Below, one piece after another: positions 2,182 through 58,910 of a stretch of DNA of 64,000 nt; the first letter of the stretch is position 1, and each line of letters begins with the position of its first letter. The DNA comes from Chitinophagaceae bacterium. GTDB taxonomy: Bacteria > Bacteroidota > Bacteroidia > Chitinophagales > Chitinophagaceae. The stretch spans positions 1-64,000 of the forward strand of contig CANGNA010000014.1 of NCBI GenBank assembly GCA_947455215.1, in the 5' to 3' direction. The notes under the pieces were generated by a model. The model made no database searches. It worked only from the letters and a program-made list of their open reading frames with translations, and was not told the DNA's origin. Position numbers and translations under genes: made by a program.

Positions 2182-2202
2182 CGCTATCAAACCACTTTTA
2201 GG

Positions 2203-2232
2203 TTTTCACTTTTGACTTTTGACTTTTGACTT
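2203..2232 (+). repeat. TTTTGAC heptad array
   Basis: Four in-register heptads, one TTTTCAC followed by three TTTTGAC and a partial unit, ending 9 bp before the mnmE ATG. It belongs to the set of 7/8-bp period arrays seen across this window, and is one of the few on the 5' side of a gene. Confidence 0.85.
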
Positions 2233-2241
2233 AAACATATA

Positions 2242-3615
2242 ATGCTCCCACTTACAGATACTATTGTTGCTATTGCTACCCCACCCGGCGAGGGTGCTAT
2301 TGGTATTGTGCGCCTTAGCGGCAGTAATGCCATAGCCATTACCAATACCCTGTTTGCGGATAAAGACCTTACAGCACAGCATTCGCACACCATACACTTT
2401 GGCCGTATGGTCAGTAAGGGTATCACTATTGATGAGGTAGTAGTGAGCATCTATAAAAACCCAAAGAGCTACACAGGCGAAGATACCATAGAGATAAGCT
2501 GCCACGGCAGTAACTATATACTACAGCAGGTGGTAGATGCCTGCCTGCAACACGGTGCCCGCGTAGCACAGCCGGGCGAGTTCACCCTGCGCGCCTTCCT
2601 GAATGGCAAGCTGGACCTTACCCAGGCCGAAGCCGTGGCCGACCTGATAGCCGGCCAAAGCGGATCGGCACACAAGGCAGCCATGCACACACTGCGCGGC
2701 GGCTTCAGCAGAGACCTGAAGGATATGCGCGAACAGCTCATCACCTTCAGCGCCCTTATGGAGCTGGAGCTGGACTTTGCCGAGGAAGATGTAGAGTTTG
2801 CCGACCGTACCCGCTTTTACGCGCTGATAGCACAGCTTACACAAGCCACACAAGCACTGGTCAATTCCTTTAGCCTGGGCAATGTTATTAAAAATGGCGT
2901 AAGGGTGGCCATAGTGGGCAAGCCCAACGCCGGCAAAAGCACCCTGCTCAATGCCCTGCTGAACGAAGAGCGCGCCATAGTGAGCGACATAGCCGGCACC
3001 ACCCGCGATACAATAGAAGAGACACTCAACATCAACGGCATCCTCTTCCGCCTGATAGACACCGCGGGCATACGCGAGCACAGCACCGATGTAATAGAGC
3101 TGAAAGGCATAGAGCGCAGCCGCGAGGCCATGAGCAAAGCCGATGTGGTGGTGTACCTCTTCGATGCATCAATAGACCAACTGAGCGAGGTGCAGGAGCA
3201 GCAAGAATACTTTAAGTACCATCACCTAAAGCACATACTGGTAGGCAACAAGGTAGATGCACACGGGCTGGACAAAGCGGCCGCCTTATACGGCCACCTG
3301 GAACACACCATATTCATATCGGCCAAAAAGAACGAGAACGTAGACGAGCTGCAAACCGCCCTCTACAAGCTGGTAGCCAGCGGCGATGTACAGCACGAAG
3401 GCACCATAGTGACCAACGTACGCCACTACGGCGCCCTGCAGGAAGTACTCAAATCACTCCACGCCATAAAGGCCGGCCTCGACACCCACACCCCCGGAGA
3501 CCTCATTGCCCTCGACATCCGCCACTGCCTCCACTACCTCGGCGAAATAACCGGCGAAATAACCACCGAAGACAAACTGGATTATATCTTTAGTAAGTTT
3601 TGTATCGGGAAGTAG
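2242..3615 (+). CDS. mnmE: tRNA uridine-5-carboxymethylaminomethyl(34) synthesis GTPase MnmE
   Basis: The 457-residue length is normal for MnmE/TrmE. The N-terminal tetrahydrofolate-binding domain opens with DTIVAIATPPGEGAIGIVR and includes the SYTGEDTIEISCHGS motif. The central helical region carries an inserted G domain with Walker A GKPNAGKS at residues 226-233, the GTTRD switch, DTAG, NKVD and FISAKK. The protein ends with FCIGK, where the conserved Cys of the C-terminal CIGK motif is present. With MnmG it modifies the wobble uridine of several tRNAs in the cytoplasm. It is transcribed alone. Identification is secure. Confidence 0.97.
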   Translation: MLPLTDTIVAIATPPGEGAIGIVRLSGSNAIAITNTLFADKDLTAQHSHTIHFGRMVSKGITIDEVVVSIYKNPKSYTGEDTIEISCHGSNYILQQVVDACLQHGARVAQPGEFTLRAFLNGKLDLTQAEAVADLIAGQSGSAHKAAMHTLRGGFSRDLKDMREQLITFSALMELELDFAEEDVEFADRTRFYALIAQLTQATQALVNSFSLGNVIKNGVRVAIVGKPNAGKSTLLNALLNEERAIVSDIAGTTRDTIEETLNINGILFRLIDTAGIREHSTDVIELKGIERSREAMSKADVVVYLFDASIDQLSEVQEQQEYFKYHHLKHILVGNKVDAHGLDKAAALYGHLEHTIFISAKKNENVDELQTALYKLVASGDVQHEGTIVTNVRHYGALQEVLKSLHAIKAGLDTHTPGDLIALDIRHCLHYLGEITGEITTEDKLDYIFSKFCIGK

Positions 3616-23033: not shown

Positions 23034-23068
23034 TTTTTACTTTTAATTTTTACTTTTTATTTTTTTAA
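23034..23068 (+). repeat. AT-rich heptad array over the dsbD stop codon
   Basis: Five consecutive heptads TTTTTAC, TTTTAAT, TTTTACT, TTTTATT, TTTTTAA. The last covers the stop codon of the minus-strand DsbD gene (23065-23067). Confidence 0.75.
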
Positions 23069-25212
23069 GGGTGCAGTTCCTTGTACTTTGCTTTCACCTT
23101 ATCCAGGTGATTCACAAACTTCTCTACATCCGGATCGTAGCCATAACCACCATCGGCAAGCTTGTTACCCTCGGCGTCTGTATAGAAATAATATGGCTGA
23201 CCTGCTGAGGCAAACTTGGCCACCTGCAGGTAAGAGCAATAATCACCCAGTGTCTCTACCTGCTTACCCAGTTCTTTAGAGAAGAATTGTTCTTCCTTAG
23301 GTAAGGCCACCTGATACGCATCGCAGAATAACGATACCACTATAAAGTCTTCCTTCAGGCGTTTGGCCACTTCAGGCTTGGCCCATACCTGCCCTTCCAT
23401 CTTGCGACAGTTGATGCAGGTGATACCAGTAAAGTCCAGCATCAGCGGCTTGTTTTGTTTTTTAGATGCAGCCAGCGCTTCGTTGTAATCAAAATAAGTT
23501 TCCAGGCCCAGTTGCTTTACAGCCTTGCCCTCGTATTTGTGCAATATATCGTAGTATTTTCGGGTCTCCTTATCGGCACTGCCGCTACTTGCAGCAGGGG
23601 CTGCAGTAGTACCGCCAAACTCATCGAATGTGCCCATAGGTGGCACAAATGCGCTCATACCATTCAGCGGAGCACCCCACATACCGGGGATGAGGTATAC
23701 CGCAAAAGTGAAGAACGTAATAGACAATATCAGCTTGAAAGTATTCACGTAGTTCTGACCATAGATATTCTTGGCTGGCTCATCGTCGTGAGACAGTTTG
23801 ATCCACCCCATCAGGTAAGCAGCAGTGAGGACGGATAATACTACCCACAGGGCAATGAATATCTCCCTGTCCAGCAGTCGCCATCCTTTCTGCAGGTCGG
23901 CATTCGACAAGAATTTCAATGCCAGCATCAGTTCTATAAAGCCCAGCACCACCTTTACCTGGTTCAGCCAGCCACCCGAAGATGCCATTTTATTCAGCAA
24001 TCCCGGGAACACAGCAAACAAGGCAAATGGCAGCGACAAGCCCAGCGAGAAGCCAAACATACCCACCGTAGGCCCGGCTATACCACCCTTACTGGCCAAA
24101 ACCAGCAGCGGGCCAACTACAGGACCTGTACACGAGAAGGATACTATAGCCAGTGTAAGCGCCATGAAGAAGATACCCATCACGCTACCCGTACCCGCTT
24201 TAGAGTCTGTTGCGCTGGTCCACGATGATGGCAATGTTATTTCATACGCCCCCAGGAATGAGAACGCAAAGAAGATGATCATCACAAAGAACACCAGGTT
24301 GGCTATCCAGTTGCTCGATATCTCGTTCAGCTTGGCCGGACCGAATATGGCCGATATCATAACACCCAGCAGCGTGAATATAACAATGATGGACAATGAA
24401 TAGATGATGGCGTTCCTGATACCTTCCTGCTTGGTCTTACTGCGCTTGGTAAAGAAGCTCACCGTAACAGGTATCATAGAGAAGATACATGGTGTGAATA
24501 TGGCCGCGATACCGCTACCCAGGCTGATGAGGAACAACGCCAGCAACGATTTATTCTCCAGGCCGTTCTTACCCTCCGTCTTATCGCCGGCAGCTACCGC
24601 CTTCTTAGTGGTGTCTGCAGAAGCTGGTGCAGGCATGCCTGCAACTGGTGTTGTCGCAGTATCTGCTTTTGTAGTTTCTACAGCTGCGGTAGTAGCGCCA
24701 CCATTATTACCTGCATCGGCGCCATTGCCACCCGCACCACCGTCACCCGCGTCCTTAATGTCTATTTTAAATGGCTTGTCTGCTGTAGGTGGCAGGCAGG
24801 TCTGCTCGTTACAGATCTGGTACATATATGTACCGGTGATCGTAGTATTTCCTGTAATAGTAGCCGACTGAGTATAATCTACATTGCCTTTGAACATGTG
24901 TATGGCACCATCAATGCCATCCACGGTCTCCGTTATCAGCTTACCACTTTCCTTTACTTTGCCTTCCAGCTTTACCTTGTCGCTGCCTTTGAATTTAATG
25001 ACCGGTGGTATCAGCGAACCATCGCCGCCAGGGTTAAAAGAATAGATATGCCAGTCTTTGGGTAGCTTCAGGTGTACGATCAGGTCATACTTATTGCCTG
25101 TTTTCTTCTTTGCCTCAAAGGTCCACTTACTTTCATCTTTCAGCATTTGCGCTTGCCCTGTCTGAAACAGGAACATAAAAAAGATGACCGGTAATAGCTT
25201 AAAAAATCTCAT
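23065..25212 (-). CDS. dsbD: Thiol:disulfide interchange protein DsbD
   Basis: DsbD carries reducing power from cytoplasmic thioredoxin across the inner membrane to periplasmic thiol proteins. All three modules are present in 715 residues: a signal peptide; the alpha domain (about 20-155) with Cys134 and Cys139 in ICNEQTCLPP; a Gly/Ala-rich linker; the CcdA-like membrane domain (about 225-500) with the Cys-containing IFTPCIFSMIPV and SFSCTGPVVGPLL helices; and a C-terminal thioredoxin domain with Cys599 and Cys602 (CINCRKM). The order alpha-beta-gamma and both membrane cysteines are as in functional DsbD. Two free alpha-domain genes lie directly upstream on the same strand. Confidence 0.93.
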   Translation of the reverse strand: MRFFKLLPVIFFMFLFQTGQAQMLKDESKWTFEAKKKTGNKYDLIVHLKLPKDWHIYSFNPGGDGSLIPPVIKFKGSDKVKLEGKVKESGKLITETVDGIDGAIHMFKGNVDYTQSATITGNTTITGTYMYQICNEQTCLPPTADKPFKIDIKDAGDGGAGGNGADAGNNGGATTAAVETTKADTATTPVAGMPAPASADTTKKAVAAGDKTEGKNGLENKSLLALFLISLGSGIAAIFTPCIFSMIPVTVSFFTKRSKTKQEGIRNAIIYSLSIIVIFTLLGVMISAIFGPAKLNEISSNWIANLVFFVMIIFFAFSFLGAYEITLPSSWTSATDSKAGTGSVMGIFFMALTLAIVSFSCTGPVVGPLLVLASKGGIAGPTVGMFGFSLGLSLPFALFAVFPGLLNKMASSGGWLNQVKVVLGFIELMLALKFLSNADLQKGWRLLDREIFIALWVVLSVLTAAYLMGWIKLSHDDEPAKNIYGQNYVNTFKLILSITFFTFAVYLIPGMWGAPLNGMSAFVPPMGTFDEFGGTTAAPAASSGSADKETRKYYDILHKYEGKAVKQLGLETYFDYNEALAASKKQNKPLMLDFTGITCINCRKMEGQVWAKPEVAKRLKEDFIVVSLFCDAYQVALPKEEQFFSKELGKQVETLGDYCSYLQVAKFASAGQPYYFYTDAEGNKLADGGYGYDPDVEKFVNHLDKVKAKYKELHP

Positions 25213-27986: not shown

Positions 27987-28128
27987 GAGTCAAAAGTCAT
28001 AAGTTGTAAGTAGAAAGTCCTGCTGTACAATGCAAAAGAAAGTCCTAAGTCCTACTGGGCAATGCAAATAACTTTGCTATAATTTAGATGTCTAAAATTT
28101 TACGACCTACGACCTACGACTTACGACT
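27987..28128 (-). repeat. Heptad repeat region (AAGTNNN and TACGACY units)
   Basis: Three blocks with a 7-bp period lie between the DUF6427 promoter and the next gene's stop codon. 27987-28021 has five heptads of the form RAGTNNN. 28040-28053 has AAGTCCT twice, within a diverged direct repeat of about 24 bp (28015-28038 and 28047-28070). 28101-28128 has TACGACC twice and TACGACT twice and touches the stop codon of the 483-residue gene (28128-28130). Confidence 0.85.
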
Positions 28129-29579
28129 TAAAATGCCACTTTAGCAAAACATATTTGCTTTTTCGACAAACATGGCACGATCAGCACGCGAGACGATACC
28201 TGGCGACCGGCCCTCGGCAACCAGTCGGGCGAATTATTGCCCGTAGGGGTAAAACTACTGATCTCTGTTTTGCCCGTAGGGTCTATTGTAGCCAGCTGTA
28301 TCCTGGAACGCGTAGCATTGAAGTCGTTGAATAAGAACGCTAAAGAGCCCCCTGAGTTAAGTATTGCATAAGATCCGAAAGCACCATTATCCTCCTGCGA
28401 ATATTGCTCTTTCGACACAAACGACTTCCACTCCCTTACCCCGTCCTTATTATAAGAAAGGGCCATGATATCATTGTAGTGGTATTCTTTGACCAAAGAC
28501 GTATTATATGGAGTATAAAACGCTGAATAATAACCAACTGTAGGCATATAGTTCGTGCGTGTGGTGATATAGGTATCCTCCGCTACCAGCACAAATCCGC
28601 CATCATTTTTTACGATCAGCTGCCTCGGCAAATAGTTATCAAACGGGTTGCGCTTCTCTTTTTCAGATGCCCTATTGATCAGTTCCTCATCAAAAGGAAT
28701 GAATTTGAAATTGTCAAAACTATCGCTCACCGGGTTCATGGCCGCAAAGATCACACCGTCATAGTGGCCATTTTTGCTATTGGTATAAAAGCCCCCAAAG
28801 TATACTCTGCGGTTCACATTATCTATTTTCATATAGCCGCTGGTAGCATATTTACCATCCAGGTTCATGTGGCTACAGGTAAATTTCGTGCTGCCTTCGG
28901 GCAGCGACAGTATCATGTAGTCATCGGCGTAGTTCTCGGCACCGGTGGTTGTATAGGCCGTAACATAAACGGTGCCGTCATTGGCTATGCTCACCTCGCC
29001 CTTGGTCAGCATGCTCTTACTGGGGTAGTTAACTTTAGCCTTCCGCACAACTTTCAGGCTGTCGTCCAGCCATTTGCAATCCATCTCTACTCCATTGGCC
29101 CTTTCATCAAGCGTATAAATAAGTATCTTCTTCTTATCTTCCGATACTGACGCATAATAGTAGGTCTTCATAGCACCAAAAATGCTGGTTTTGATATGGC
29201 CCAGCTCTATTGGCTTGCCCTTTAGCAGGCCCCTTTGGTCCAGCAAAGCGGCGTATTGCACCACCTTATTACTCTCCAACGCCTGGTACAAGAGCACCAT
29301 ACGATCGGGGTAAGCTATAAATTTAGTAGCATATATCTTGGTAGGAAAGAAATCAAGCACCACGGTCGCTGCCTTGTTCATAGAGTCGTCGTAGGCATCC
29401 AGCAGCGCGCCATCTGTAGTATTGCGGTAGGTAAACAATTTACCACCGCACATACCCACCACATCGTATTCGCCATTGCGAAAATCAAACTTATCGAACG
29501 GGGAATAGAGAACATCCTGCGCAAAGCCTACATTACAGGCTGCCAGCAGAAGAACAAGGGCTAGTTTCAATTTACTCAT
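28128..29579 (-). CDS. Secreted protein of unknown function, beta-propeller-like
   Basis: I do not recognise the family. The 483-residue protein has a clear signal peptide (LALVLLLAACNVGFAQ; cleavage after AQ, or lipidation at the Cys of LLAACN is possible). The rest is rich in repeated strand-turn segments such as GKLFTYRNTTDGALLDAYD, DRMVLLYQALESNK, GTVYVTAYTTTG and RRVYFGGFYTNSKNG, resembling blades of a beta-propeller. The gene is monocistronic, with a -7 box 4 nt before its ATG and a heptad array over its stop codon. Confidence 0.7.
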   Translation of the reverse strand: MSKLKLALVLLLAACNVGFAQDVLYSPFDKFDFRNGEYDVVGMCGGKLFTYRNTTDGALLDAYDDSMNKAATVVLDFFPTKIYATKFIAYPDRMVLLYQALESNKVVQYAALLDQRGLLKGKPIELGHIKTSIFGAMKTYYYASVSEDKKKILIYTLDERANGVEMDCKWLDDSLKVVRKAKVNYPSKSMLTKGEVSIANDGTVYVTAYTTTGAENYADDYMILSLPEGSTKFTCSHMNLDGKYATSGYMKIDNVNRRVYFGGFYTNSKNGHYDGVIFAAMNPVSDSFDNFKFIPFDEELINRASEKEKRNPFDNYLPRQLIVKNDGGFVLVAEDTYITTRTNYMPTVGYYSAFYTPYNTSLVKEYHYNDIMALSYNKDGVREWKSFVSKEQYSQEDNGAFGSYAILNSGGSLAFLFNDFNATRSRIQLATIDPTGKTEISSFTPTGNNSPDWLPRAGRQVSSRVLIVPCLSKKQICFAKVAF

Positions 29580-29679: not shown

Positions 29680-29997
29680 ATGAAAAAACTAACATTGATA
29701 ATATCCGCTTGCCTGCTTGCAGGGATGGTAAATGCACAGCAACTAAAATCTGATGGATCTATCGTAGACAGCCACAATACCACCATAGGCTACTTTAAAG
29801 GCGACGGCACTGTAGAGGACAGCCACCACAGCACCATTGGCTATGTAAAAAAAGATGGAACTATTGAAGATAGCCACCATAGCACCATCGGCTACCTGAA
29901 GAGCGACGGCACTATGGAAAACAGCCACCACAGCACATTAAAAAAGGCCGGCAGCAACCGCATGGAAGATGTGTTGAAGCAGTTTTTCTTTAAATGA
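29680..29997 (+). CDS. Secreted 17-residue repeat protein (beta-flower-like)
   Basis: A 105-residue protein with a signal peptide (LTLIISACLLAGMVNAQ) and four tandem 17-residue repeats at residues 24-40, 41-57, 58-74 and 75-91. The unit reads xDGTxEDSHHSTIGYxK; the first and last copies are diverged. A short helix-like tail (MEDVLKQFFFK) follows. The strand-turn repeats, each with Gly and Asp at fixed places, resemble the small beta-flower proteins annotated in Bacteroidota, where each repeat forms one petal. ATG 29680 is chosen since it gives the signal peptide directly; the frame is open to 29614. Function unknown. Confidence 0.82.
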   Translation: MKKLTLIISACLLAGMVNAQQLKSDGSIVDSHNTTIGYFKGDGTVEDSHHSTIGYVKKDGTIEDSHHSTIGYLKSDGTMENSHHSTLKKAGSNRMEDVLKQFFFK

Positions 29998-39370: not shown

Positions 39371-39402
39371 CATTGAGCCATTGAGCAATTCAGCAATTAT
39401 CA
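39371..39402 (-). repeat. Octamer array directly after dprA
   Basis: On the plus strand CATTGAGC, CATTGAGC, AATTCAGC, AATTATCA lie in exact 8-bp register and end at the dprA stop codon (39403-39405). Read in the dprA direction the word is GCTCAATG, identical to the ribH array. Confidence 0.88.
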
Positions 39403-40515
39403 CTAACTCATCCTGTAGTTCTTCCCCGGCAGTGTTTTGATGATCCCCTGCATTTCCAGGTTCAGTAAGGTAGCGGCAAGAAGCGAATTAGGTAACCCCG
39501 TGCGATGAAATAACTCATCAGAATGCACGGTATCTTTTGTTTGCAGCAGGTCTACTATCTTTTGCTCATCGGGTGTGAAGTTGATGAACAGTTGCTTTTG
39601 CACAGGTTTCTTTTTGGCCTTGTCTATCCAGTTCATCTGCTCCAGCAGGTCTTCTGTTTTGGTGATCATAGCGGCCATATTGCAGCGTATCAGGTCGTTG
39701 CAGCCGGCGCTGCGGCTATCATTCACCCTACCGGGGTAAGCCATCACCTCGCGGTTGTAGCTAGCCGCCATCTTTGCTGTTATCAGCGCCCCACCCGACA
39801 CCTGGCTTTCCACCACTATCGTCACATCGCTAAGGCCGGCCACCACCCTGTTGCGCATCGGGAAATTGCCCTTATCAGGTATCGTGCCCGACGGGAATTC
39901 CGTCAGCACCCCACCATGAGCCACCATCTGTTTAGCCAGTTGCTGGTGGCTTGCAGGGTATATCCTGTCCAACCCGTGCCCCAGCACGCCTACATTCGCT
40001 ATGCCGGCAGCTACGCTGCGCTTGTGGGCTATGGCATCTATGCCCAGTGCCAGCCCGCTTACCACAAGCAGGTTGTCTACCTGCGCCAGCCCTTCTATCA
40101 ATTCTTCTGTAAGCTGCTGACCATAATCTGTATTCTTACGTGTGCCAACCACAGCCACTATCCGCTCAGCATCCAGGTCGGCTGTTCCTTTATAGAACAG
40201 GAGCAATGGTGCATCGCTGCACTGGGCCAGCCGTTTAGGGTAATTCTTGTTGTGGTACAGCGCCTGTACATCATTCTTTAGTACAAATGCCAGTTCCTTT
40301 TCAGCGGCATTCAGCACATCGGCACTGCGGAAGCCCTTGGCCTTCACCTCGCCAATGCCATCTATGCTCTTCAGTTGTTTCAACGGCATTTTGAACAGCG
40401 CGGCCGCATTGCCGGTATGCTCCAGCAATACACGGCCTGTCTTGCTGCCAATGCCCGGCACCAATGTCAACGCCAGTTGATAAAACAATTCTTCGTGCTC
40501 TTCTTTATGCAGCAT
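39403..40515 (-). CDS. dprA: DNA-processing protein DprA
   Basis: DprA loads RecA onto incoming single-stranded DNA during natural transformation. The 370-residue protein has an N-terminal helix-hairpin-helix/SAM region (LVPGIGSKTGRVLLEHTGN, DGIGEVKAK). A Rossmann-fold core follows, with VVGTRKNTDYG, VVSGLALGIDAIAHKRS, LGHGLDRIYP, FPMRNRVVAGLSDVTIVVES and SGGALITAKMA. The C-terminal winged helix (KDTVHSDELFHRTGLPNSLLAATLLNLEMQGIIKTLPG) is the DML1-type domain. All core motifs are intact. It lies just downstream of argS on the same strand. Confidence 0.95.
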   Translation of the reverse strand: MLHKEEHEELFYQLALTLVPGIGSKTGRVLLEHTGNAAALFKMPLKQLKSIDGIGEVKAKGFRSADVLNAAEKELAFVLKNDVQALYHNKNYPKRLAQCSDAPLLLFYKGTADLDAERIVAVVGTRKNTDYGQQLTEELIEGLAQVDNLLVVSGLALGIDAIAHKRSVAAGIANVGVLGHGLDRIYPASHQQLAKQMVAHGGVLTEFPSGTIPDKGNFPMRNRVVAGLSDVTIVVESQVSGGALITAKMAASYNREVMAYPGRVNDSRSAGCNDLIRCNMAAMITKTEDLLEQMNWIDKAKKKPVQKQLFINFTPDEQKIVDLLQTKDTVHSDELFHRTGLPNSLLAATLLNLEMQGIIKTLPGKNYRMS

Positions 40516-45512: not shown

Positions 45513-45591
45513 CACATTCCATCACATTCCATCACATTCCATCACATTCCATCACATTCCATTCCGCCATTAAGCCATTGAGCCATTTCTA
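45513..45591 (-). repeat. Decamer and octamer arrays after nadE
   Basis: Five exact copies of the decamer CACATTCCAT (45513-45562) are followed by octamers CATTAAGC, CATTGAGC, CATTTCTA (45568-45591). The last octamer overlaps the nadE stop codon (45589-45591). In the nadE direction the octamer is again GCTCAATG-like, as at ribH and dprA. Confidence 0.92.
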
Positions 45592-47271
45592 AGAAAGGTA
45601 TTTCCCCTCTATCGGCATCCTCCTGCCAATCCCAAACGACTTTGGCGACACCCTGATGATGGGGCAAAACTGGTTGCGCTTATACTCATTGGTATTCACC
45701 AGCTTCATAATGCGTTTTACCAATGCATCGTCAAATCCTGCTGCCACTATCTCCTTAGGCCCCAGGCGGCGCTCTATGTACATGTACAGTATCGGGTCCA
45801 GCACAGGGTAATCGGGCAGGCTATCGCTATCCTTCTGGCCAGGGCGCAACTCTGCGCTTGGCGCCTTGGCAATGATGTTTACAGGTATTATCTCTTTATC
45901 GCGGTTAATGTACCTGGCCAGCGCATACACCTGCTCTTTATACAGGTCGCCCAGTATACCCAGACCGCCGGCCATATCGCCATACAGCGTGCCGTAACCG
46001 GTAGATAGTTCGCTCTTATTAGATGTATTCAGCAATATAGTGCCAAACTTGTTCGATAAAGCCATCACCATAGCACCGCGTATCCTGCTCTGCAGATTCT
46101 CTTCCGCCACATTGAATGGCAGCCCTTTAAAGACAGGTGCCAGCGCTGTTTCATATGCGCCAAACACATCTTTTATCGGTATGATATCATAATGACCACC
46201 CAGGTTCTCAGACAGCTGCACCGCATCATCTACCGAATGATCGGTAGAGAATTGAGAAGGCAACAGCAGCGCATTCACGTTCTCCGCGCCCAGCGCCTCG
46301 CTGGCTACTGCCAGCACCACAGCGCTGTCTATCCCGCCCGATGAAGCTACTATGGCCTTCTTAAAGCCCATCTTACCGAAGTAATCCCTAATGCCTGTAA
46401 GCAAGGCATTATGTATGGCATCTATATTCTTTTCCGGCATCAGCGTTTCCGGCACTACCTGCAGCCCCGGCACCTTATCGGCAGGGCATACCACCGCTTC
46501 ACTAAAGCTGCCATCCTCGTTAAAGACCACACTTTGCAGGTCTTCTTTAAAGTAAGGCAGCTCCTTCACTATGTTGCCGCCTGCATCCATCACCAGCGAT
46601 CCGCCATCAAACACTATATCCGTATGCGCCCCTACGGTATTGCAATACACCATAGGCAGCTTGTATTCCTGCACATTACGCTTTACTATACCCTTGCGGC
46701 CCTCGGCATGCACATAATCAAATGGCGATGCACTCAGGTTGATCATCATATCAGGCTGTTGCTTTATCAGCTCATCCATAGGGCAATGCCTGTACATCGG
46801 GTTATCGGTCAGATTCCAGATATCCTCGCATATGGTCACCGCCAGTTTCTTCCCCTTAAACTCCACTACATTCCAGCTGTAGGCCGGCTCAAAGTAGCGG
46901 TACTCGTCAAATATATCGTAGTTGGGCAGCAGCGTTTTGTTCACCACAGCCTTTACCTGCCTGTCATGCAAAAAGTAGGCACTGTTAAACAGATCCTTGC
47001 CCTCAATAGTAGGGTTGCGAGACGGGCAGCCCACCAGCACACCTATCGTATCTGCCACCTGCCTTATCCGCTCTATACTCGCCAGGCACGACTCTATAAA
47101 ATCATTGAACTCCAGGAAATCTCTCGGCGGGTAACCGCATACCGATAGCTCGGAAAACACAATTAGGTCTCCCCCATCCTGCTTCGCCTGTTCTATAGCG
47201 GCTATTATCTTATCGGTATTGGCCTCGAAATTGCCTATATGGTAGTTCTGTTGCGCAACAAATATCTTCAT
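45589..47271 (-). CDS. nadE: Glutamine-dependent NAD+ synthetase
   Basis: A 560-residue bifunctional enzyme for the last step of NAD synthesis. The N-terminal nitrilase-type glutaminase domain (about 1-260) has the triad Glu41 (VFSELSVCGYPPRD), Lys112 (NKTLLPNYDIFDE) and Cys148 (AVTICEDIWN). The C-terminal ammonia-dependent synthetase has the ATP pyrophosphatase P-loop SSGGIDSAV (about 310-318), NTSNKSELSTGYGTLYGDMAGG and KAPSAELRPGQKDSDSLPDY. The length and motif set are complete. Its -7 box lies 7 nt before the ATG, and tandem arrays lie at its stop codon. Confidence 0.96.
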   Translation of the reverse strand: MKIFVAQQNYHIGNFEANTDKIIAAIEQAKQDGGDLIVFSELSVCGYPPRDFLEFNDFIESCLASIERIRQVADTIGVLVGCPSRNPTIEGKDLFNSAYFLHDRQVKAVVNKTLLPNYDIFDEYRYFEPAYSWNVVEFKGKKLAVTICEDIWNLTDNPMYRHCPMDELIKQQPDMMINLSASPFDYVHAEGRKGIVKRNVQEYKLPMVYCNTVGAHTDIVFDGGSLVMDAGGNIVKELPYFKEDLQSVVFNEDGSFSEAVVCPADKVPGLQVVPETLMPEKNIDAIHNALLTGIRDYFGKMGFKKAIVASSGGIDSAVVLAVASEALGAENVNALLLPSQFSTDHSVDDAVQLSENLGGHYDIIPIKDVFGAYETALAPVFKGLPFNVAEENLQSRIRGAMVMALSNKFGTILLNTSNKSELSTGYGTLYGDMAGGLGILGDLYKEQVYALARYINRDKEIIPVNIIAKAPSAELRPGQKDSDSLPDYPVLDPILYMYIERRLGPKEIVAAGFDDALVKRIMKLVNTNEYKRNQFCPIIRVSPKSFGIGRRMPIEGKYLS

Positions 47272-47393: not shown

Positions 47394-47428
47394 AACTACT
47401 TACGACTTACTACTTATTACTTACGACT
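47394..47428 (-). repeat. TANNACT heptad array over the queA stop codon
   Basis: Five in-register heptads on the plus strand: AACTACT, TACGACT, TACTACT, TATTACT, TACGACT. The TAG stop of queA (47427-47429) is at the end of the array. Confidence 0.88.
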
Positions 47429-48476
47429 ACAAAATAAGCATCGCGTCACCATAGCTGAAGAAGCGATACTTTTCCTTGATCGCTGTTTCGTAAGTGTGCA
47501 TCATCAGGTCGTAGCCGGCAAAAGCACAAGCCATGATCATCAGGCTGGTCTTAGGCAGGTGGAAGTTAGTGATCAGCGAATCTGCGATAGAGAACTCATA
47601 AGGCGGGTGAACGAACAGGTTCGTCCAGCCTTCTTCAGGCTTCAGCAGGCCCTGTGCAGTTACCGAGCTTTCCAATGCGCGCATTGTGGTAGTACCTACC
47701 GAGCACACATGGCGCTTTTCCATCTTGGCCTTGTTCACTATGTTGGCAGCATATTCGTCTACCTTAAAGTATTCTGCATCCATCTTATGCTTGCTCAGGT
47801 CTTCTACCTCTATCGGGCGGAAGGTACCCAGACCCGTGTGCAGTGTAGCCTCAGCAAACTTTACACCTACTATTTCCAGGCGCTTGATCAGCTCGCGGCT
47901 GAAGTGCATACCCGCAGTGGGCGCAGCCACAGCACCTTCGTACTTGGCATATACCGTCTGGTAGCGTTCTTTATCTTCTTCTTCAGGCTTGCGCTTGATG
48001 TATTTAGGCAGTGGTGTTTCGCCCAGTATATCCAGCATGTTCCTGAACTCCTGCTCCGAACCATCAAAAAGGAAACGGATGGTACGGCCACGCGATGTAG
48101 TATTATCTATTACTTCTGCTACCAGCTCGTCATTATCACCAAAGTACAGCTTGTTGCCAACGCGTATCTTACGCGCAGGATCTACGATCACATCCCACAG
48201 GTGGTTGGGCTTATTAAGTTCGCGCAGCAGGAACACTTCTATTTTGGCCCCGGTCTTTTCCTTACGGCCATACAGGCGGGCAGGAAAAACCTTGGTATTG
48301 TTCACCACCATTACATCTTTATCGTGGAAATAGCCCAGAACATCTTTGAACACTTTGTGCTCTATTTTGCCGCTATCGCGATGCACCACCATCAGGCGGC
48401 TCTCTTCACGTTTTTTGGCAGGATGTTGTGCTATTAGATTTAATGGTAATTCGAACTTGAATTGCGACAACTTCAT
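47427..48476 (-). CDS. queA: S-adenosylmethionine:tRNA ribosyltransferase-isomerase
   Basis: QueA transfers and rearranges the ribosyl part of SAM onto preQ1 in tRNA, the penultimate step of queuosine synthesis. The 349 residues are typical: [99 protein letters not shown] and [21 protein letters not shown]. No other queuosine gene is adjacent. It has its own promoter box, and a heptad array plus terminator at the 3' end. Confidence 0.96.
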
Positions 48477-52171: not shown

Positions 52172-53557
52172 ATGAACCTGAAAAACGTAAAGTGGCGTTT
52201 CCGCTACGCCATGCAGTATTTCCCGCTTACGTTCAATACTATACTTTGGGCCGCCCTGCTTTGGGGCGGCTACAAGCTGTTATACAAGCCCGTGCCCAAG
52301 GGCGAAGCCCCTTCGTCATTCATGCCTTTTATCATCCTCATGGGCAAGATGGTGTTCTGGGTGCTGGGCAGCCTGGTAGCACTGTCCATTTTATCTACCA
52401 TTGCCTGCTGGGTATACTACCTCATCATCAGGAAGAATAAGAATAGTGTCTTGCGGGTCGAGTTCAATACCGAGGCACGCCGTGGGCGCAAGAACAAACT
52501 GTTCCTTAATGCCAGCTTGCCCCACGCCTTCCGTCCCTTCCTGGGCTTTGTAAAGGGCAGCCTTATTTACGACAACAACCTGATGACCGACCGCTTCAGC
52601 CTGCTATCCAACCAGCTAAAGGAACGCAGCATCTGGAGGCTGGCCATCACAGGCCGCAGTCGCGTTATGCTGCCCGATATTAAAGAGTACCAACTGAAGG
52701 GAGGCTTCGTTTTCTTCCAGGATATGCTACACATCTTTTCCCTGGCTGTGGCGCAGCCGGTAAGCGGGCACTTTTACCAGCCCCCTGTATTGCAGGAAGA
52801 ACAAGACCCCGAGGTGGCCCCAAAGAAAACAGAAACATTGGATGTGCGCATAGAGCAAATGCGCCGCGTGGAGGGTGAATACCTGAACTATAAAGACTTT
52901 GAGGCCGGCGATGATATCCGCCGTATCATATGGAAGGTATATGCCAAGAACCGGGAACTGGTCATCCGTGTGCCGGAAATGTTCGAGCCATTCGCATCGC
53001 ATCTTTATTACTATGCGTCCTTTCATGCCGGGGTAAAGGATAGCTGGGTAAATAGCGAGTATGCTAAAGAGATGCTCAACTACTTTAAGAACGATGTGTG
53101 GACCATCTACGACGCCCTGTCTAAAAAGGAATGGAAGATGTCGTTCATATCCGACCAGGAGCTAAAAGTACCCTCCGGCGGCGATGAAGCCGAGACCACC
53201 GCACGCGTCATCAGCAACAGCAAGTGGCACAGGGATAAGGAGCTGCACCAATACTTCAGCCCTAAGAATGGCACTGTGCTGTGCGTTTCCAGCTTTACAG
53301 AACCTGCAGCACTACAGCAAATACTGGAGCGTTGCGATGCCGGCACCATAGTATATTTCGCAAAGCTATCGAGGGCCTTCAGGCACTTTGCTGCGCTCAA
53401 CTTGCTTAGTCGCATCATCATTCGCCCGCCGCAAGACAGGCTGCACAAGCTGCGCACCCGCTGGCTGTTCTCCCCCATGCGCATACAAGTAGCCCGCCGC
53501 GAAAAAGAACTGGAAAACATCCTCCGCAAAAGCCCCGTCACCTGGGGCGAGTTGTAA
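52172..53557 (+). CDS. DUF58 domain protein, membrane-anchored
   Basis: A 461-residue protein with two N-terminal membrane segments (YFPLTFNTILWAALLWGGYKL and VFWVLGSLVALSILSTIACWVYYL) and a DUF58 core at about residues 230-280: EYLNYKDFEAGDDIRRIIWKVYAKNRELVIRVPE. The C-terminal part resembles a VWA-like fold without a clear metal motif. It is longer than, and only distantly like, the DUF58 protein at 31.2-32.1 kb. It follows the BlaR1-amidase gene by 48 bp on the same strand. This could place it under the same regulation, but the gap may also hold its own promoter. Confidence 0.85.
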   Translation: MNLKNVKWRFRYAMQYFPLTFNTILWAALLWGGYKLLYKPVPKGEAPSSFMPFIILMGKMVFWVLGSLVALSILSTIACWVYYLIIRKNKNSVLRVEFNTEARRGRKNKLFLNASLPHAFRPFLGFVKGSLIYDNNLMTDRFSLLSNQLKERSIWRLAITGRSRVMLPDIKEYQLKGGFVFFQDMLHIFSLAVAQPVSGHFYQPPVLQEEQDPEVAPKKTETLDVRIEQMRRVEGEYLNYKDFEAGDDIRRIIWKVYAKNRELVIRVPEMFEPFASHLYYYASFHAGVKDSWVNSEYAKEMLNYFKNDVWTIYDALSKKEWKMSFISDQELKVPSGGDEAETTARVISNSKWHRDKELHQYFSPKNGTVLCVSSFTEPAALQQILERCDAGTIVYFAKLSRAFRHFAALNLLSRIIIRPPQDRLHKLRTRWLFSPMRIQVARREKELENILRKSPVTWGEL

Positions 53558-53581
53558 CATGCGGTACTACTATTGAAAAAA

Positions 53582-53611
53582 CGCCGCTGTCCTGTCTTCA
53601 GACTGACAGCC
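53582..53611 (+). repeat. Dispersed 30-bp hairpin repeat, copy 2
   Basis: Identical over 30 bases to 1962-1991 and followed within 9 bp by CGTATTCGTTTT, which also follows copy 1. Confidence 0.8.
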
Positions 53612-53754
53612 ACATCTGGGCGTATTCGTTTTGTATCAAAAAACATGGGTCTCTGCGAGGAACAGTCTTCCCCGAACGCTTTCGGGAAAGCAGTCTTGCA
53701 CCTATGCGTATTTGCTTCGGAAACTCTACTCCGCTAAGCTCACCCACAAAAAAG

Positions 53755-53775
53755 GGTGCCGCTCAACGCGGCACC
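53755..53775 (-). terminator. Intrinsic terminator of the giant T9SS gene
   Basis: GGTGCCGC pairs with GCGGCACC around a 5-nt loop, with a T run on the minus strand (A run at 53747-53753). It lies 150 bp after the stop codon; the heptad array fills the space between. Confidence 0.85.
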
Positions 53776-53790
53776 AATAAAATATACACC

Positions 53791-53916
53791 TTGAAATTTG
53801 ACTCTTGGTTCTTGGAATTTGAACCTTGGAATTTGGTTCTTGGTTCTTGGACCTTGAACCTTGGTTCTTGGACCTTGGCTCTTGACTCTTGGCTCTTGGA
53901 CTTTGGCACTTGGTTC
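53791..53916 (-). repeat. 18-unit degenerate heptad array (TTGRNNY) in the 3' untranslated region
   Basis: Eighteen consecutive heptads in perfect register from 53791 to 53916. Every unit begins TTG, the fourth base is G or A, and the last three vary (for example TTGGTTC, TTGACTC, TTGGAAT, TTGAACC). It ends 8 bp from the T9SS stop codon (53925-53927) and lies wholly between stop codon and terminator, so it is transcribed on the minus strand as RNNYCAA units. Confidence 0.95.
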
Positions 53917-53924
53917 TTATGAAC

Positions 53925-56900
53925 TTAACGCTGAACCGTAAAATGCAGCGTCTTGCTTTCTGTACCATTGCGTATGGTCAGCAGGTAAGTACCATTAGCC
54001 AGCGTACCATCCAGCTGCAGCTCGTGGCTCACTACCCCATTGGCCACCTCAGCATTGCTCATATAAATAGCCTTGCCCAGCATGTCAGTAACCTGTACAC
54101 CTATAGTACCATTCACCACACCCGCTACATTACCGGTTACGCGGAAGGTACCATTGTTAGGATTAGGCACCAGCAGCACATTGCGGCCCTGGGTAAGATC
54201 ATACACGCCTACGTTGTTACCAACTGTGATGTTCAGATAGCTGAATACGCTCACACCGCTGCACTGGTCGGTATTGGTAACCGCACAGCTTACAGAGTCG
54301 CCGCTATGCAGGAAGTTGGCAATAAATACGCTGCTGGTAGCGCCCGGCTGTGGCACGTTATTAATGAACCACTGGTATGCAGGCGCTATACCACCACCGC
54401 TGGTTATTGTGCAGGTAAAGGTATCGTTAACACCTGCAGGCACTATATAACCAGGCTGTGCGGTGATAACACCTACCGGCTGTGTAATAGGCAGCACGGT
54501 GAGCGACATATTAGCACTTGCCGAAGCAATAGTAACACAAGGGAAGTTGCTGATCATGGTCACCTGCACCAGGTCGCCATTGGCAGGCGCATAAGTGTAG
54601 GTAGGGCCAACACCCGCAGGCAAGCCATTAACTGTCCACTGGTAGGTAGGCGCTGTACCACCGCCGTACATGGTAGTACTCAGAATATCAGGATAGCCAT
54701 CGCACGTTACAGGGCCCATGGCCGATGATATGTTCACCACCGGTGTTATCAGCGGGCTTACCGTCAGCACTTTGGTAGTGGTAGCGGTATTGGCTGTGCG
54801 GCATGGCGCATTGCTGGTCATGATACAGTTGATCACATCACCGTTCGTCGGACTATAAGTATACGTAGGACTAACACCTGAAGGCACACCATTCACGGCC
54901 CACTGGTAGCTCGGTGTTATACCACCGCCAATCGGCGTTGGGGTCAGCGTGGTCAGCATAGTGTTACAAACTGTATCGCCCATACCTGTCGATATAGTTA
55001 CAGCAGGGGTCACAATAGGATTCACATGCATATCCAGCCATGCGCTCGATGTATCGGGCACTGCACAGGCGTAGCTGCTCAGTATCCATACACGTACCCT
55101 GTCGCCATCTGCGGGAGTGTAAGTATAAGAAGACGCTCCTGAAAGAATTACATTATTCACACTCCATACATACAGTGGCGATGTACCACCGCCAACGATG
55201 GTTGGCACATATGTAACAGGTGTGCCTGCACAAACTGTAGTGCCTGCGCTTGGTGTCAGGGAAACAGACGGCGGCGCTATTGGGCTTACCGTCATGAATT
55301 TGCTGGTAAGACAACCATTGGTACCCGTAGTATACGTAACAGTAGCAGCACCTACAGCCAGGCCATATGCCGTGCCCGACGTAGTTACAGATACAATAGA
55401 TGGATTGCTGCTGCTCCATGTACCACCCGATACGGTGTTACTCAACGATGTTGAAGAGCCGATGCACACAAAGTCGCTGCCATCTATAGGTGCAGGTATT
55501 GTGTTCACGGTAACTTCTACACTCCTGCGGCAGCCGGTTGTCAATGTGTATGTTATTGGCGCAGTACCACCCACTATACCGTACACAGCACCTGTAGAAG
55601 CTACTGTTGCTATAGCTGTAGCACCACTTACCCACGTACCACCCGGAGTGCTGGAAAGTGTAGTTACTGCCAACTGGCAAACAGTTAACGGGCCGGCTAT
55701 AGGTGTTGGCAGCGGGTTCACGGTAACTACCTGCGTAGCAGAGCAACCATTACTACCCGTGTAAGACACTGTAGCATTACCTGCCACCAGGCCGGTAACC
55801 ACACCCGCCATAGATACTGTAGCTATACCGCCTGTACTCACGCTCCAGGTACCCGGAGTGGTAGCATCAGCAAGCACTGTCGATCCGCCTGCCTCGCATA
55901 CGGCCGCAGTACCTGTTATTGCTGCAGGTAAAGGCAGTACGGTAACACTTCTTGATACGTAACAGCCTGTAGCTATTACGGTATAGGTAATGGGCACAGT
56001 ACCTGCGGCAACACCGTATACGGCACCGCTTGCTACATCAGTAGTAGCTATCGACATATCGCCGCTAGACCATTGTCCACCCGGCGTACCATCTGTAAGG
56101 GTGATAACCGAACCGGCTGCACAAACGGTTGTTGTAGCACCGCTTATAGCCACAGGCAGCGCGTTAACGGTAATTGGTGTAGTTATAGAACAGCCGGTTC
56201 CGGTAGCAGTATAAGTAACGGTAATACTACCCGCAGCCACGCCCGTAACCAGGCCAGCCGACGTAACAGTGGCTATTGACGACGGACCCGCCGTACTGAA
56301 CGTGCCCGGTGTAGTAGCATCGGTCAATGTTATGGTAGCACCAGCAGCACATACCGATGTAGCGCCGCCAATAGGTGCCGGTAATGGGTTAACTGTAATA
56401 GTGCGTTGTGCAGTACAACCTACAGATGTAGCATAAGTGATCACTGCATTACCTGCAGCCACACCACCAACAGTACCTGTAGTACCAGCACCGCTCACTG
56501 TTGCTGTGCCGGTAGCACCGCTTGTCCAGGTACCGCCGCTTGTTACATGCGCTAATGATATGGTACTACCCGGGCACACAGTGCCGGGGCCTGTAATAGC
56601 CGCCAGCGGCGGGTTGACCGTAACCGCTGCAGTTACAAAACAACCCGACGGTAATGTATACGTAATATTAACTGTGCCTGCTGCCACACCATACACAGCA
56701 CCTGTGCTGGCATTTACCGTAGCAAGCGTTGGGTTACCACTGCTCCACGTACCGCCCGTCACTGTATTGGTAAGCGTAGTAACACCGCCACCATAGCAAA
56801 CAATAAGCGAGCCACCTATGGGGGCTGCATTCACTGTATTTACTATTGCGGTATCCTTGCAACCTGTTGATGTAGCGGTGAACGTGATTATTGACGAGCC

Positions 56901-58910
56901 TATGCTTACACCGGTAACAACACCTGCAGAAGTAACAGTAGCTACAGATGTGGTGCCACTCACCCAGGTACCGGCACCTGCAGGATCTGTAAGCGATATC
57001 GTATTGCCGATACATATGTTAGAGGGACCGCTGATTGCCGGGCCGGGGTTAACCGTTACCACCTGGAACGCACCGCAACCGGTAACGTTGTAGTAAATGG
57101 TATCAACACCAACTGACAAACCTGTAACCAACCCGCTTGTGGCATTCACGCTGGCTACTGTTGTATTCGATGCACTCCAGGTACCACTTGGTGTAGTGTT
57201 GCCCAGGCTGATAGTACCGCCCCAGCATACTGAAGATGGACCTGTGATAGCTGATAGTCCGGTATTGATAGTAACTATACCTGTATCGTATGAGTTGCAG
57301 GCAGTACTGCCGGTAGACGTTGCTATGTAATTAACTGTTGTAAGCGAAGAGACTGTAGTAGGATGCACATAAACGGTAGTAGCAGGTGTACCCGCAACAT
57401 ACGGTGTTGTGAATGCCGGATCCGTAAAGAGGTAAGTTGACGGACTCCATGTAGGGGCGGTGCCGGCTGTTGGCGTACCTGTGATACTTACATTATCAAT
57501 AGCCCAGAAATACCCATATACTGTGTTATAATAAAAACGGAGCTTGCAATTCGCACTGCCCAGGTAAGGTGTAAGAGAAAATGTTGCAGTAGCAAACGCG
57601 GCCGGAGCACCTACGGTAGCTCCGCCTGAGAAATAGTTATTAAGTACGGTCCAAGTAGTGCCACCGTCTGTAGATATCTCCACGTTAGCATTCACATCTC
57701 CCAGCGTCCATATCCTGTAATAATGCTCGAATGTGAGCGTAGCCGCAGAATAACCAACAAGAGAGAACGTTGGTGATATCAGCCTGGTACTGGTTGTTGC
57801 ACCACTACCACCGGCATCGGCATTGGTCATCATGAATGTGGAAGCATCAGTGCTACTGAAAGGACCAAAAATAGAATACGTGTATGGGCTTATCTGCTGC
57901 TGCCATGGGCCCAGCGCGCTGGTTGAGGTCGTGCCTGTATTATCTACCGTCCAGGGCGCTACAGACGAATTGAAGTTCTGGGTAAGAATAGTACCAGGTG
58001 TTGGCGGCACTGTGGCCACCAGCGACAGGCTGCCACCATTACATATTGATGCAGAAGCTGGTGTTACTGTTGGTACAGGCGCCGCTGCCAATAGCGCTAC
58101 GTTGGTAGTAAGCGTAGTGGTACACGTACCATTGGAAGCTGTAAATGTATAGGTACCAGCAGTTGTGATACCAGGTGCCGTTGGTGATAATGATGCAGAT
58201 GTAAATCCACCAGGACCGGTCCATGAATAAGTAGGTGCGGTAGTAGCACCTACCAGGGAAACAGGCGCACCCGGACAGAATGGACCACTATTAGATGCAG
58301 AAGCAGTAAATGGACATGGGCTAATGATATTAGCGCGATAATCGACCACATCTCCGCTCCAGTAATTGGGATTCGTAGCCAGGTATTGTATCAGACAGGG
58401 ATCAAGATGTACCGGTGCTACACCAAGAGTTGTTGATATCTGCTCCCATACACCACGTATGCGCATGGTATGTATACCTGTATTAGCGCCTGCCGGTATT
58501 GTAATATTGAAATTAGTTGGGCTAACTGTGGTACCTGTGGTAAAACCACTTACCGGGGTTACTTCCTCGGTTATTGAAAACACCCCATCATCATTAAAAT
58601 CTATCCACATCTGTAACTCCTGGTAGGAAGATACGGTACCCCAACCAGCGGATGCCGCATATACCCCGCCCTGCAAAAAATTCACAGCAGCCATTGAAGT
58701 GCGGTCAAGATAACCTGTGGTAGTACTGGCAGCTGCCGTCATACCTGCATCAGTTATTGTTGAACCACTGTAACCAGTAATATTCAACGTATTAACCCCA
58801 TAGCCAACTGACGCAACACTAAACCAGGAGGCCGATGTAGGGTAACATACAGCAGATGCATTAAATGCCGCAAATAACCCTACCAGAGTTGCAATGGATA
58901 GTTTTTTCAT
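53925..58910 (-). CDS. Giant T9SS surface protein with Ig-like repeats (1661 aa)
   Basis: An exported protein (signal SIATLVGLFAAFNASA) of 1661 residues. Order of parts: a GEVED-type domain (about 20-200, with MWIDFNDDGVFSITEEV), an Ig-like domain (about 205-275), a choice-of-anchor/MAM-like domain (about 310-485), nine BIG2-like units of about 70 residues, each starting near VC-x-G and holding a second Cys in a GC motif, then four PKD-like units of about 90 residues (for example APTYQWTVNGLPAGVGPTYTY), and a C-terminal type A sorting domain ending LANGTYLLTIRNGTESKTLHFTVQR-like. It is probably a cell-surface adhesin delivered by T9SS. It is paralogous to the next gene. Confidence 0.93.
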   Translation of the reverse strand: MKKLSIATLVGLFAAFNASAVCYPTSASWFSVASVGYGVNTLNITGYSGSTITDAGMTAAASTTTGYLDRTSMAAVNFLQGGVYAASAGWGTVSSYQELQMWIDFNDDGVFSITEEVTPVSGFTTGTTVSPTNFNITIPAGANTGIHTMRIRGVWEQISTTLGVAPVHLDPCLIQYLATNPNYWSGDVVDYRANIISPCPFTASASNSGPFCPGAPVSLVGATTAPTYSWTGPGGFTSASLSPTAPGITTAGTYTFTASNGTCTTTLTTNVALLAAAPVPTVTPASASICNGGSLSLVATVPPTPGTILTQNFNSSVAPWTVDNTGTTSTSALGPWQQQISPYTYSIFGPFSSTDASTFMMTNADAGGSGATTSTRLISPTFSLVGYSAATLTFEHYYRIWTLGDVNANVEISTDGGTTWTVLNNYFSGGATVGAPAAFATATFSLTPYLGSANCKLRFYYNTVYGYFWAIDNVSITGTPTAGTAPTWSPSTYLFTDPAFTTPYVAGTPATTVYVHPTTVSSLTTVNYIATSTGSTACNSYDTGIVTINTGLSAITGPSSVCWGGTISLGNTTPSGTWSASNTTVASVNATSGLVTGLSVGVDTIYYNVTGCGAFQVVTVNPGPAISGPSNICIGNTISLTDPAGAGTWVSGTTSVATVTSAGVVTGVSIGSSIITFTATSTGCKDTAIVNTVNAAPIGGSLIVCYGGGVTTLTNTVTGGTWSSGNPTLATVNASTGAVYGVAAGTVNITYTLPSGCFVTAAVTVNPPLAAITGPGTVCPGSTISLAHVTSGGTWTSGATGTATVSGAGTTGTVGGVAAGNAVITYATSVGCTAQRTITVNPLPAPIGGATSVCAAGATITLTDATTPGTFSTAGPSSIATVTSAGLVTGVAAGSITVTYTATGTGCSITTPITVNALPVAISGATTTVCAAGSVITLTDGTPGGQWSSGDMSIATTDVASGAVYGVAAGTVPITYTVIATGCYVSRSVTVLPLPAAITGTAAVCEAGGSTVLADATTPGTWSVSTGGIATVSMAGVVTGLVAGNATVSYTGSNGCSATQVVTVNPLPTPIAGPLTVCQLAVTTLSSTPGGTWVSGATAIATVASTGAVYGIVGGTAPITYTLTTGCRRSVEVTVNTIPAPIDGSDFVCIGSSTSLSNTVSGGTWSSSNPSIVSVTTSGTAYGLAVGAATVTYTTGTNGCLTSKFMTVSPIAPPSVSLTPSAGTTVCAGTPVTYVPTIVGGGTSPLYVWSVNNVILSGASSYTYTPADGDRVRVWILSSYACAVPDTSSAWLDMHVNPIVTPAVTISTGMGDTVCNTMLTTLTPTPIGGGITPSYQWAVNGVPSGVSPTYTYSPTNGDVINCIMTSNAPCRTANTATTTKVLTVSPLITPVVNISSAMGPVTCDGYPDILSTTMYGGGTAPTYQWTVNGLPAGVGPTYTYAPANGDLVQVTMISNFPCVTIASASANMSLTVLPITQPVGVITAQPGYIVPAGVNDTFTCTITSGGGIAPAYQWFINNVPQPGATSSVFIANFLHSGDSVSCAVTNTDQCSGVSVFSYLNITVGNNVGVYDLTQGRNVLLVPNPNNGTFRVTGNVAGVVNGTIGVQVTDMLGKAIYMSNAEVANGVVSHELQLDGTLANGTYLLTIRNGTESKTLHFTVQR

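Follow-up and report, generated by a model that had tools for sequence, protein, structure and literature searches.

The window, by which we mean the whole stretch of 64,000 nt analysed here (contig CANGNA010000014.1 of a Chitinophagaceae bacterium), carries a long heptad array beside a giant gene, in a gap with the following features.

53791..53916, no strand assigned: TTGRNNY heptad array of 18 units, which reads RNNYCAA on the minus strand, outward from the giant gene
53925..58910, minus strand: gene of 1661 aa with Ig-like repeats/domains and a T9SS sorting tail; 8 nt separate its stop codon from the array
53755..53775, minus strand: terminator-like hairpin beyond the array as viewed from the giant gene; stem of 8 pairs, 7 of them G-C
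52172..53557, plus strand: convergent neighbour of 461 aa, without Pfam match; its stop lies 233 nt from the array

The original prediction had placed the array between the stop codon and the terminator of a giant T9SS gene. This placement was confirmed by the stop at 53925, by the terminator-like hairpin on the far side (53775-53755) and by a Por_Secre_tail match of 27.7 bits (cut-off 27) in the 1661-aa product. The hairpin scan found one site where shuffles averaged 1.0, so this count is not beyond chance. No orthologues of the giant gene were found in an orthologue search. To the left of the array, a 46-bp stretch (53591-53635) matches a flank of a further TTG array (L094) at 85% identity and is probably another dispersed intergenic repeat; near it, the palindrome CCCGAACGCTTTCGGG was seen by eye.

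A tally of the units agreed with the predicted pattern of 18 TTG-initial units in exact 7-bp register with a purine at position 4 (G in 13 units, A in five). Variation had been expected at positions 5 to 7; this held for positions 5 and 6, with three bases each, but not for position 7, which is only C (14) or T (4). The lag-7 score of the array was 43.5, compared to a maximum of 12.3 among 2000 local shuffles. Nine distinct units occur among the 18, and there is partial unit duplication inside the array. Variation was uneven over the seven positions when all 18 units were used (P = 0.0002), and also when each of the nine distinct units was counted once (P = 0.023). Once amplified units are counted once, the “fixed triplet plus free tail” of the window array is thus only weakly beyond what decay would give. 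We also asked, across arrays, whether the three most variable unit positions are side by side. Adjacent variable positions were found in 10/12 arrays of the window genome (2.4 expected), nine of these 12 loci having been chosen by TTG, and in 8/18 of a mixed set (3.6 expected), 9/40 of G055, a single-contig genome of another genus (8.0 expected), 6/31 of genus g2 (6.2 expected) and 5/36 octads. A fixed block as a general trait of such arrays was rejected on these counts.

It had been suggested that the array is an RNA element of the 3′ UTR that binds an RNA-binding protein or marks the 3′ end for processing. Its position between stop codon and hairpin fits this, and two other loci (L093 and L098) have a similar stop-array-hairpin order. 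Compared to plain shuffles, the window array folded with a z of about −3 on both strands; however, shuffles of its unit order folded as well in 181 and 95 of 300 cases, so it is the unit content that accounts for the excess. A structured RNA was rejected on this ground. Rfam gave 0 matches to E 1 in 53500-54000. Further, the host genes of such arrays are unrelated in function, the corresponding 3′ ends of the nearest relatives examined carry no heptad array, and like arrays stand equally tight, in mirrored orientation, before start codons (see below). We consider such a 3′ UTR signal very improbable. Two further roles were rejected. A general terminator role does not suit TTTT- and CTTA-type arrays, since hairpins of −8 kcal/mol or below are few within 50 nt of them (8/43 on the left, 3/43 on the right). 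As for back-up tandem stops, a gene's own stop recurred at +7 and +8 in the window genome (15 and 15 of 291 gene ends, compared to 2-11 elsewhere from +3 to +44), with no such peak in smaller samples of G161 (112 ends) and G150 (42 ends). The window array is stop-free in every mRNA frame except for one TAA at its proximal end, and because it is nearly stop-free, back-up stops were rejected as its reason.

The window contains further short-unit arrays, most of them at the edges of genes.

2196..2232, plus strand: TTTTGAC-type heptad array, ends upstream of mnmE (2242-3615), 9 nt short of its start codon
23034..23065, plus strand: TTTTTAC-type heptad array, enters the stop codon of gene 23065-25212 (product DsbD-like, below family cut-offs)
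28101..28130, plus strand: CTTACGA-type heptad array, overlaps the stop codon of gene 28128-29579
39371..39398, plus strand: octad array of the CCATTGAG type; 4 nt separate it from the stop of dprA (39403-40515)
45513-45562: 10-bp repeat array of five exact copies of CACATTCCAT, directly behind the CCATTRAG octad array
45559..45587, plus strand: octad array of CCATTRAG units; 1 nt separates it from the stop of the NAD+ synthase gene (45589-47271)
47395..47428, plus strand: CTTACGA-type heptad array, overlaps the stop codon of queA (47427-48476)

A tandem repeat of another kind, with periods of 51 and 102 bp that are both multiples of three, lies at 29752-29936 within the called gene 29680-29997 (plus strand).

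Arrays of this kind are dispersed through the genome and occur in relatives. Four tandem TTGN4 units gave 57 overlapping matches in the 4.2-Mb window genome, compared to 4 for the backwards control. Non-coding TTG arrays of at least four units numbered 18, the window array and 17 others; one pattern match (L102) lies inside a gene and was left out. The arrays have a common YTGGNNY look, and their neighbour genes are functionally unrelated: they encode a lipid A acyltransferase, a universal stress protein, a 2Fe-2S protein, a GNAT protein, RarA/MgsA, NuoF, YfhO and a glycosyltransferase, among others. A unit-free lag scan was run on 1.28 Mb of the window genome (about 30% of it, in chosen stretches including the window), with genes called by a simple ORF-based method using a hexamer model. 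It found 19 arrays of period 7, of which 18 were intergenic and six of these in the window, and 26 arrays of period 8, of which 22 were intergenic; 3-mer block shuffles of the same 1.28 Mb gave 0 arrays. In 400 kb of G055, 79 of 87 arrays with period 7 and 29 of 29 with period 8 were intergenic. Such arrays thus recur in the genome and its relatives. They were not scattered over the gaps irrespective of period and without a tie to gene ends, the outcome that would have refuted the original prediction; periods 7 and 8 lead in the gaps.

Besides TTG, the window genome uses heptad units such as TTTTNAC and CTTACGA, and octad units such as CCATTRAG and TTAGCTGA. The two heptads are found again in the two other genomes of the genus, and the three g2 genomes have few or none of them. 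In a survey of the family, the six-unit TTG pattern was present in 76/195 genomes, and its backwards control was equally common in many, which indicates that unit types differ by lineage. In G089, which belongs to the genus of the window genome, CTTANNA read backwards as a control matched 48 times, so that another heptad dialect is probably present there.

We considered whether the arrays are dispersed elements of about 30-40 bp (CAC-TTTTAGG-TTTTNAC-TTTTGAC-TTTTNAC-TT or ACTTACRACTTATGACTTACGACTTACGACTAA) that were copied and inserted at gene edges in a fixed orientation. TTTT-type arrays repeat their unit order at several loci and in sister species, as judged by eye, and dialects are shared within the genus. 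Among 16 of the 18 TTG arrays, however, no three-unit run was in common (1.1 were expected with within-array unit shuffles), and two-unit runs in common numbered 15 compared to 11.3 expected, a value reached in 43/500 shuffles. With so few runs in common, the TTG arrays look locally built rather than copied from one another. The flanks also speak against copying. A comparison of 54 flanks considered the best 15 of 129 left pairs and the best 15 of 70 right pairs at E<=1; among these, the right flanks gave one strong pair, which comes from homologous genes (L382/L384), then none below E 0.005, and the strong left pairs came from either half of a single gap or from other repeats of local extent. 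No target sequence common to start and stop edges was seen. On this evidence, insertion of copied elements is a rather improbable account of the arrays.

The arrays were found to be linked to gene ends beyond chance, and to gene starts as well. Edge contact was defined as a distance of at most 12 nt and was scored for arrays with both neighbour genes called. Among heptad arrays, 13/18 touched a coding edge in the window genome (3.4 expected) and 37/77 in G055 (10.4 expected); among octad arrays the counts were 15/21 (6.1 expected) and 7/25 (3.6 expected), respectively. The tRNA edges say little here: 0/12 tRNAs of the window-genome sample had an array within 60 nt, and the G055 sample contained 0 tRNAs.

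Whether the coding edge is a start or a stop, it is nearly always the same end of the array that faces it in arrays sharing a unit. The nearer gene was on the 3′ side of the TTG strand in 17/18 TTG arrays of the window genome, with 11 gene ends and six gene starts. A second set of 43 TTTTNAC and CTTACGA loci, taken from the window genome, G089, G166 and genus g2 (five loci) and forming a part of 97 and 70 pattern matches, contained 42 intergenic arrays. In these the 3′ side of the T strand was within 25 nt of an edge in 32/42 cases (20 stops and 12 starts), compared to 3/42 for the other side. An orientation-free test compared the agreement in side between arrays of like unit with that under random side assignment. 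Same-unit pairs of the window genome agreed in 16/16 (period 7) and 24/24 (period 8) cases, which random sides reached in 1 and 4 of 2000 trials; those of G055 agreed in 59/61 and 14/14 cases, reached in 0 and 8 of 2000. Pairs of like arrays of which one lies at a start and the other at a stop agreed in 16/16 cases in the window genome and 27/27 in G055 (random sides, 0/4000 each), and in 14/14 and 15/15 under a stricter gene-score cut. Stop-stop pairs agreed in 23/23 and 42/44 cases, and start-start pairs, at only 1 and 4, were too few to tell. Three of the starts, those of mnmE, rsmI and an sdhA-type gene, were checked against the respective protein families.

The rule also extends beyond the pairs. 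When polarity was taken from like arrays in other gaps, 39/43 arrays of the window genome and 88/106 of G055 pointed to the nearer edge, with exceptions pointing to the farther one in 4/43 and 18/106 cases. Arrays faced each other in 1/25 multi-array gaps of G055, compared to 10.2 with random orientation. The rule held alike in all four gap types, and edge-touching arrays were scarcest in divergent gaps. It was weaker for edge-free arrays, of which 45/66 pointed to the nearer edge, and in genus g2, as judged by eye, TCTAAYR-type arrays obey it and TTGGGTA-type arrays do not.

These observations bear on plain replication slippage without polarity, followed by point mutation, which was the third option of the original prediction. 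Partial unit duplication within arrays would suit it, and heptanucleotides are given as the most abundant such repeat class in most genomes (Mrazek 2007, as cited in the excerpts of PMC4679880). Slippage of this kind predicts no link between unit orientation and gene edge, and the start-stop agreement described above was never reached by random sides. We therefore hold it to be quite unlikely. The idea of an old slippage array also fits poorly with the distribution among relatives, since the window genome carries an array at the rarA 3′ end where the three nearest relatives examined, with 86, 81 and 73% protein identity, have no heptad array. By RarA comparison, the closest relatives with a name are an uncultured Bacteroidetes MAG and Chitinophagaceae bacterium IBVUCB1. 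Likewise, no heptad array was present at the 3′ end of a DUF3078 gene in any of the five loci examined out of eight (nearest 80% identity, same genus), or downstream of the 461-aa neighbour in any of the five relative loci examined out of six. The arrays are thus lineage-specific: the corresponding gene ends of the nearest relatives examined have none. Among 80 rarA loci (named records), two distant ones have heptad arrays at the rarA stop.

L227, 1860-1976: Cyclobacteriaceae MAG, heptad array at the rarA stop
L241, 2804-2842: Bacteroidales MAG, heptad array at the rarA stop

Their units are AGATATT-like and AAGNNNA, unlike the TTG array of the window genome at this place. Arrays at the same rarA end in two distant genomes could reflect a preference for that site.

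The strand that leaves the coding edge tends to be rich in purines. In six sample sets, two of which were chosen by the TTG pattern, the outgoing strand was purine-rich in 73/84 stop-edge and 19/25 start-edge arrays (five ties dropped), although it was so in just 5/9 start-edge arrays of G055. At the 80 rarA loci, edge-touching arrays fitted in 4/4 cases, all at stop codons. The mean purine fraction of ordinary gap edges was 0.49-0.55, and composition was rejected as the cause of orientation, the base content near starts and stops being too little skewed.

Selection at the RNA level has to be weighed here. Pyrimidine-rich heptads before starts would aid or tune translation in an organism that does not use Shine-Dalgarno initiation, for example via ribosomal protein S1; the purine-rich complement would be favoured or tolerated after stops, and arrays from opposite edges could pair as RNAs. 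The distance from array to start codon is 9 nt at mnmE, 2 nt at rsmI and 9 nt at the sdhA-type gene, and the mirrored orientation is one that complementary tags in the 5′ UTR and 3′ UTR would require. Binding by S1, Csp or CsrA has been proposed for TAACTGA repeats in the excerpts of PMC4679880. Against this stand the near lack of such strand skew in ordinary gap DNA, the unrelated functions of the host genes, the absence of the arrays from the nearest relatives examined and the lack of any fold gain from unit order in the window array. In addition, one strand after stops and its complement before starts speak against a single RNA signal, as a single RNA-binding protein would not read both complementary strands. 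Selection of this kind seems unlikely to us, and it would have to act on the UTR strand of arrays but hardly on other gap DNA. The other alternative left is a strand-polar process that ends at coding sequence.

Based on these observations, we describe the arrays as a class of lineage-specific, degenerate 7-/8-bp tandem arrays in the gene gaps of this Bacteroidota family, and the regularity of their orientation hints at directional growth of DNA repeats between genes. Our favoured but tentative explanation, in which our confidence falls a little short of even, is that short-unit arrays in gene gaps grow with a strand polarity, up to limits imposed by selection on the coding sequence; both the polar growth and these limits are what we infer from the rule above. 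Slippage of short units, or repair synthesis, would extend an array in one strand direction, running through gap DNA that selection ignores until coding sequence halts it. Growth could be directed outward from the edge, or inward until halted at the edge. The array of the giant gene would then be a side effect of repeats growing in the gap on its 3′ side, with no need for an RNA function. This array lies between the stop codon and the hairpin and so did not simply overwrite the gap from outside, the hairpin having been spared. The stop codon is in unit register in 7/11 stop-edge TTG arrays, and in several G055 genes the array pattern takes in the last codons, as if the edge had seeded the array or the array had run into the edge. 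The in-register stops suggest seeding at the stop, and start edges are unexplained by seeding. A more specific form of polar growth, which we regard as rather doubtful, is that strand-polar DNA synthesis writes 7-/8-nt units outward from coding ends by 3′ extension of the outgoing strand, in a telomere-like or break-filling manner; arrays growing outward from both neighbours would meet in mid-gap, and dialects would differ between genera. To our knowledge, no enzyme or intermediate is known for strand-polar array growth. A link to NHEJ was rejected, given that the presence of Ku does not track the arrays (45/90 genomes with Ku compared to 61/105 without).

The usual view of tandem repeats between bacterial genes is that they are regulator sites or the outcome of slippage without direction. 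Cyanobacterial STRRs consist of seven-bp tandem units between genes, as here, and belong to fixed unit families. The long simple sequence repeats surveyed in bacterial genomes are reportedly near-exact copies with no polarity toward gene edges. The window array has the tandem unit length of seven that marks the heptanucleotide repeat class, but neither near-identical copies, with nine distinct units among 18, nor orientation-free placement, given its polarity. Such heptanucleotide repeats (Mrazek 2007, as cited in the excerpts of PMC4679880) resemble the arrays here in period and in local origin.

In the open-licence literature we found one closely related paper, on TAACTGA heptamer direct repeats (MacGregor 2015, PMC4679880). 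According to its excerpts, these repeats are mostly intergenic, polar and tied to coding edges. Among the 170 sets tabulated there, 147 are directed toward a start, 12 toward a stop, six lie at contig ends and five are other cases, and the largest single class ends 1 nt before the start. In Flexibacter litoralis 12/14 sets lie before starts and one lies after a stop, in reverse orientation. The excerpts interpret the repeats as possible regulator sites at starts. The geometry is the same as that of our arrays, which are also intergenic and at coding edges with the unit pointing to the edge. The unit TAACTGA, however, is not that of our arrays, the window array being built of TTGRNNY and those elsewhere of other units. 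The excerpts describe one exact unit, whereas our arrays have many degenerate units with periods of 7 and 8; stops are commoner here than starts, and the polarity holds for arrays of different units. In the excerpts of PMC9879509, Borg tandem repeats are fast-evolving, of independent origins and biased toward A on the coding strand, and in their rapid evolution, independent origin and strand bias they are like the arrays here. In contrast, Borg units are 18-21 nt long, perfect copies and in some cases located in ORFs, and their bias follows the coding strand of the replichore and not the nearest gene edge (PMC9879509, same excerpts). A polarity rule that covers many units, octads, stops and outward pointing from mid-gap was not found stated in the open-licence literature.

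A rule that holds across different units, start and stop codons and two genera would mean either that repeat growth between genes is polar or that selection on the UTR strand has been overlooked, and either reading can be tested computationally in any complete genome of the Bacteroidota. Polar growth, if real, may also account for the replacement of intergenic DNA between close relatives.

Two minor observations concern repeats of a related look. The window array has matches of 60-80% identity on plasmid NZ_CP071130.1 of Caballeronia sp. M1242 and on nine Acinetobacter plasmids; the Caballeronia replicon matches it at 23 places, and the single place inspected carries no gene annotation. G055 also contains longer minisatellites at L414 (6853-7284) and L417 (15010-15900), with a unit of about 117 bp in L414 and a shorter one in L417, by eye. 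An octad, TCTTACGG, and a heptad, AAGTACG, occur within these units, which looks like block-wise amplification of short arrays.
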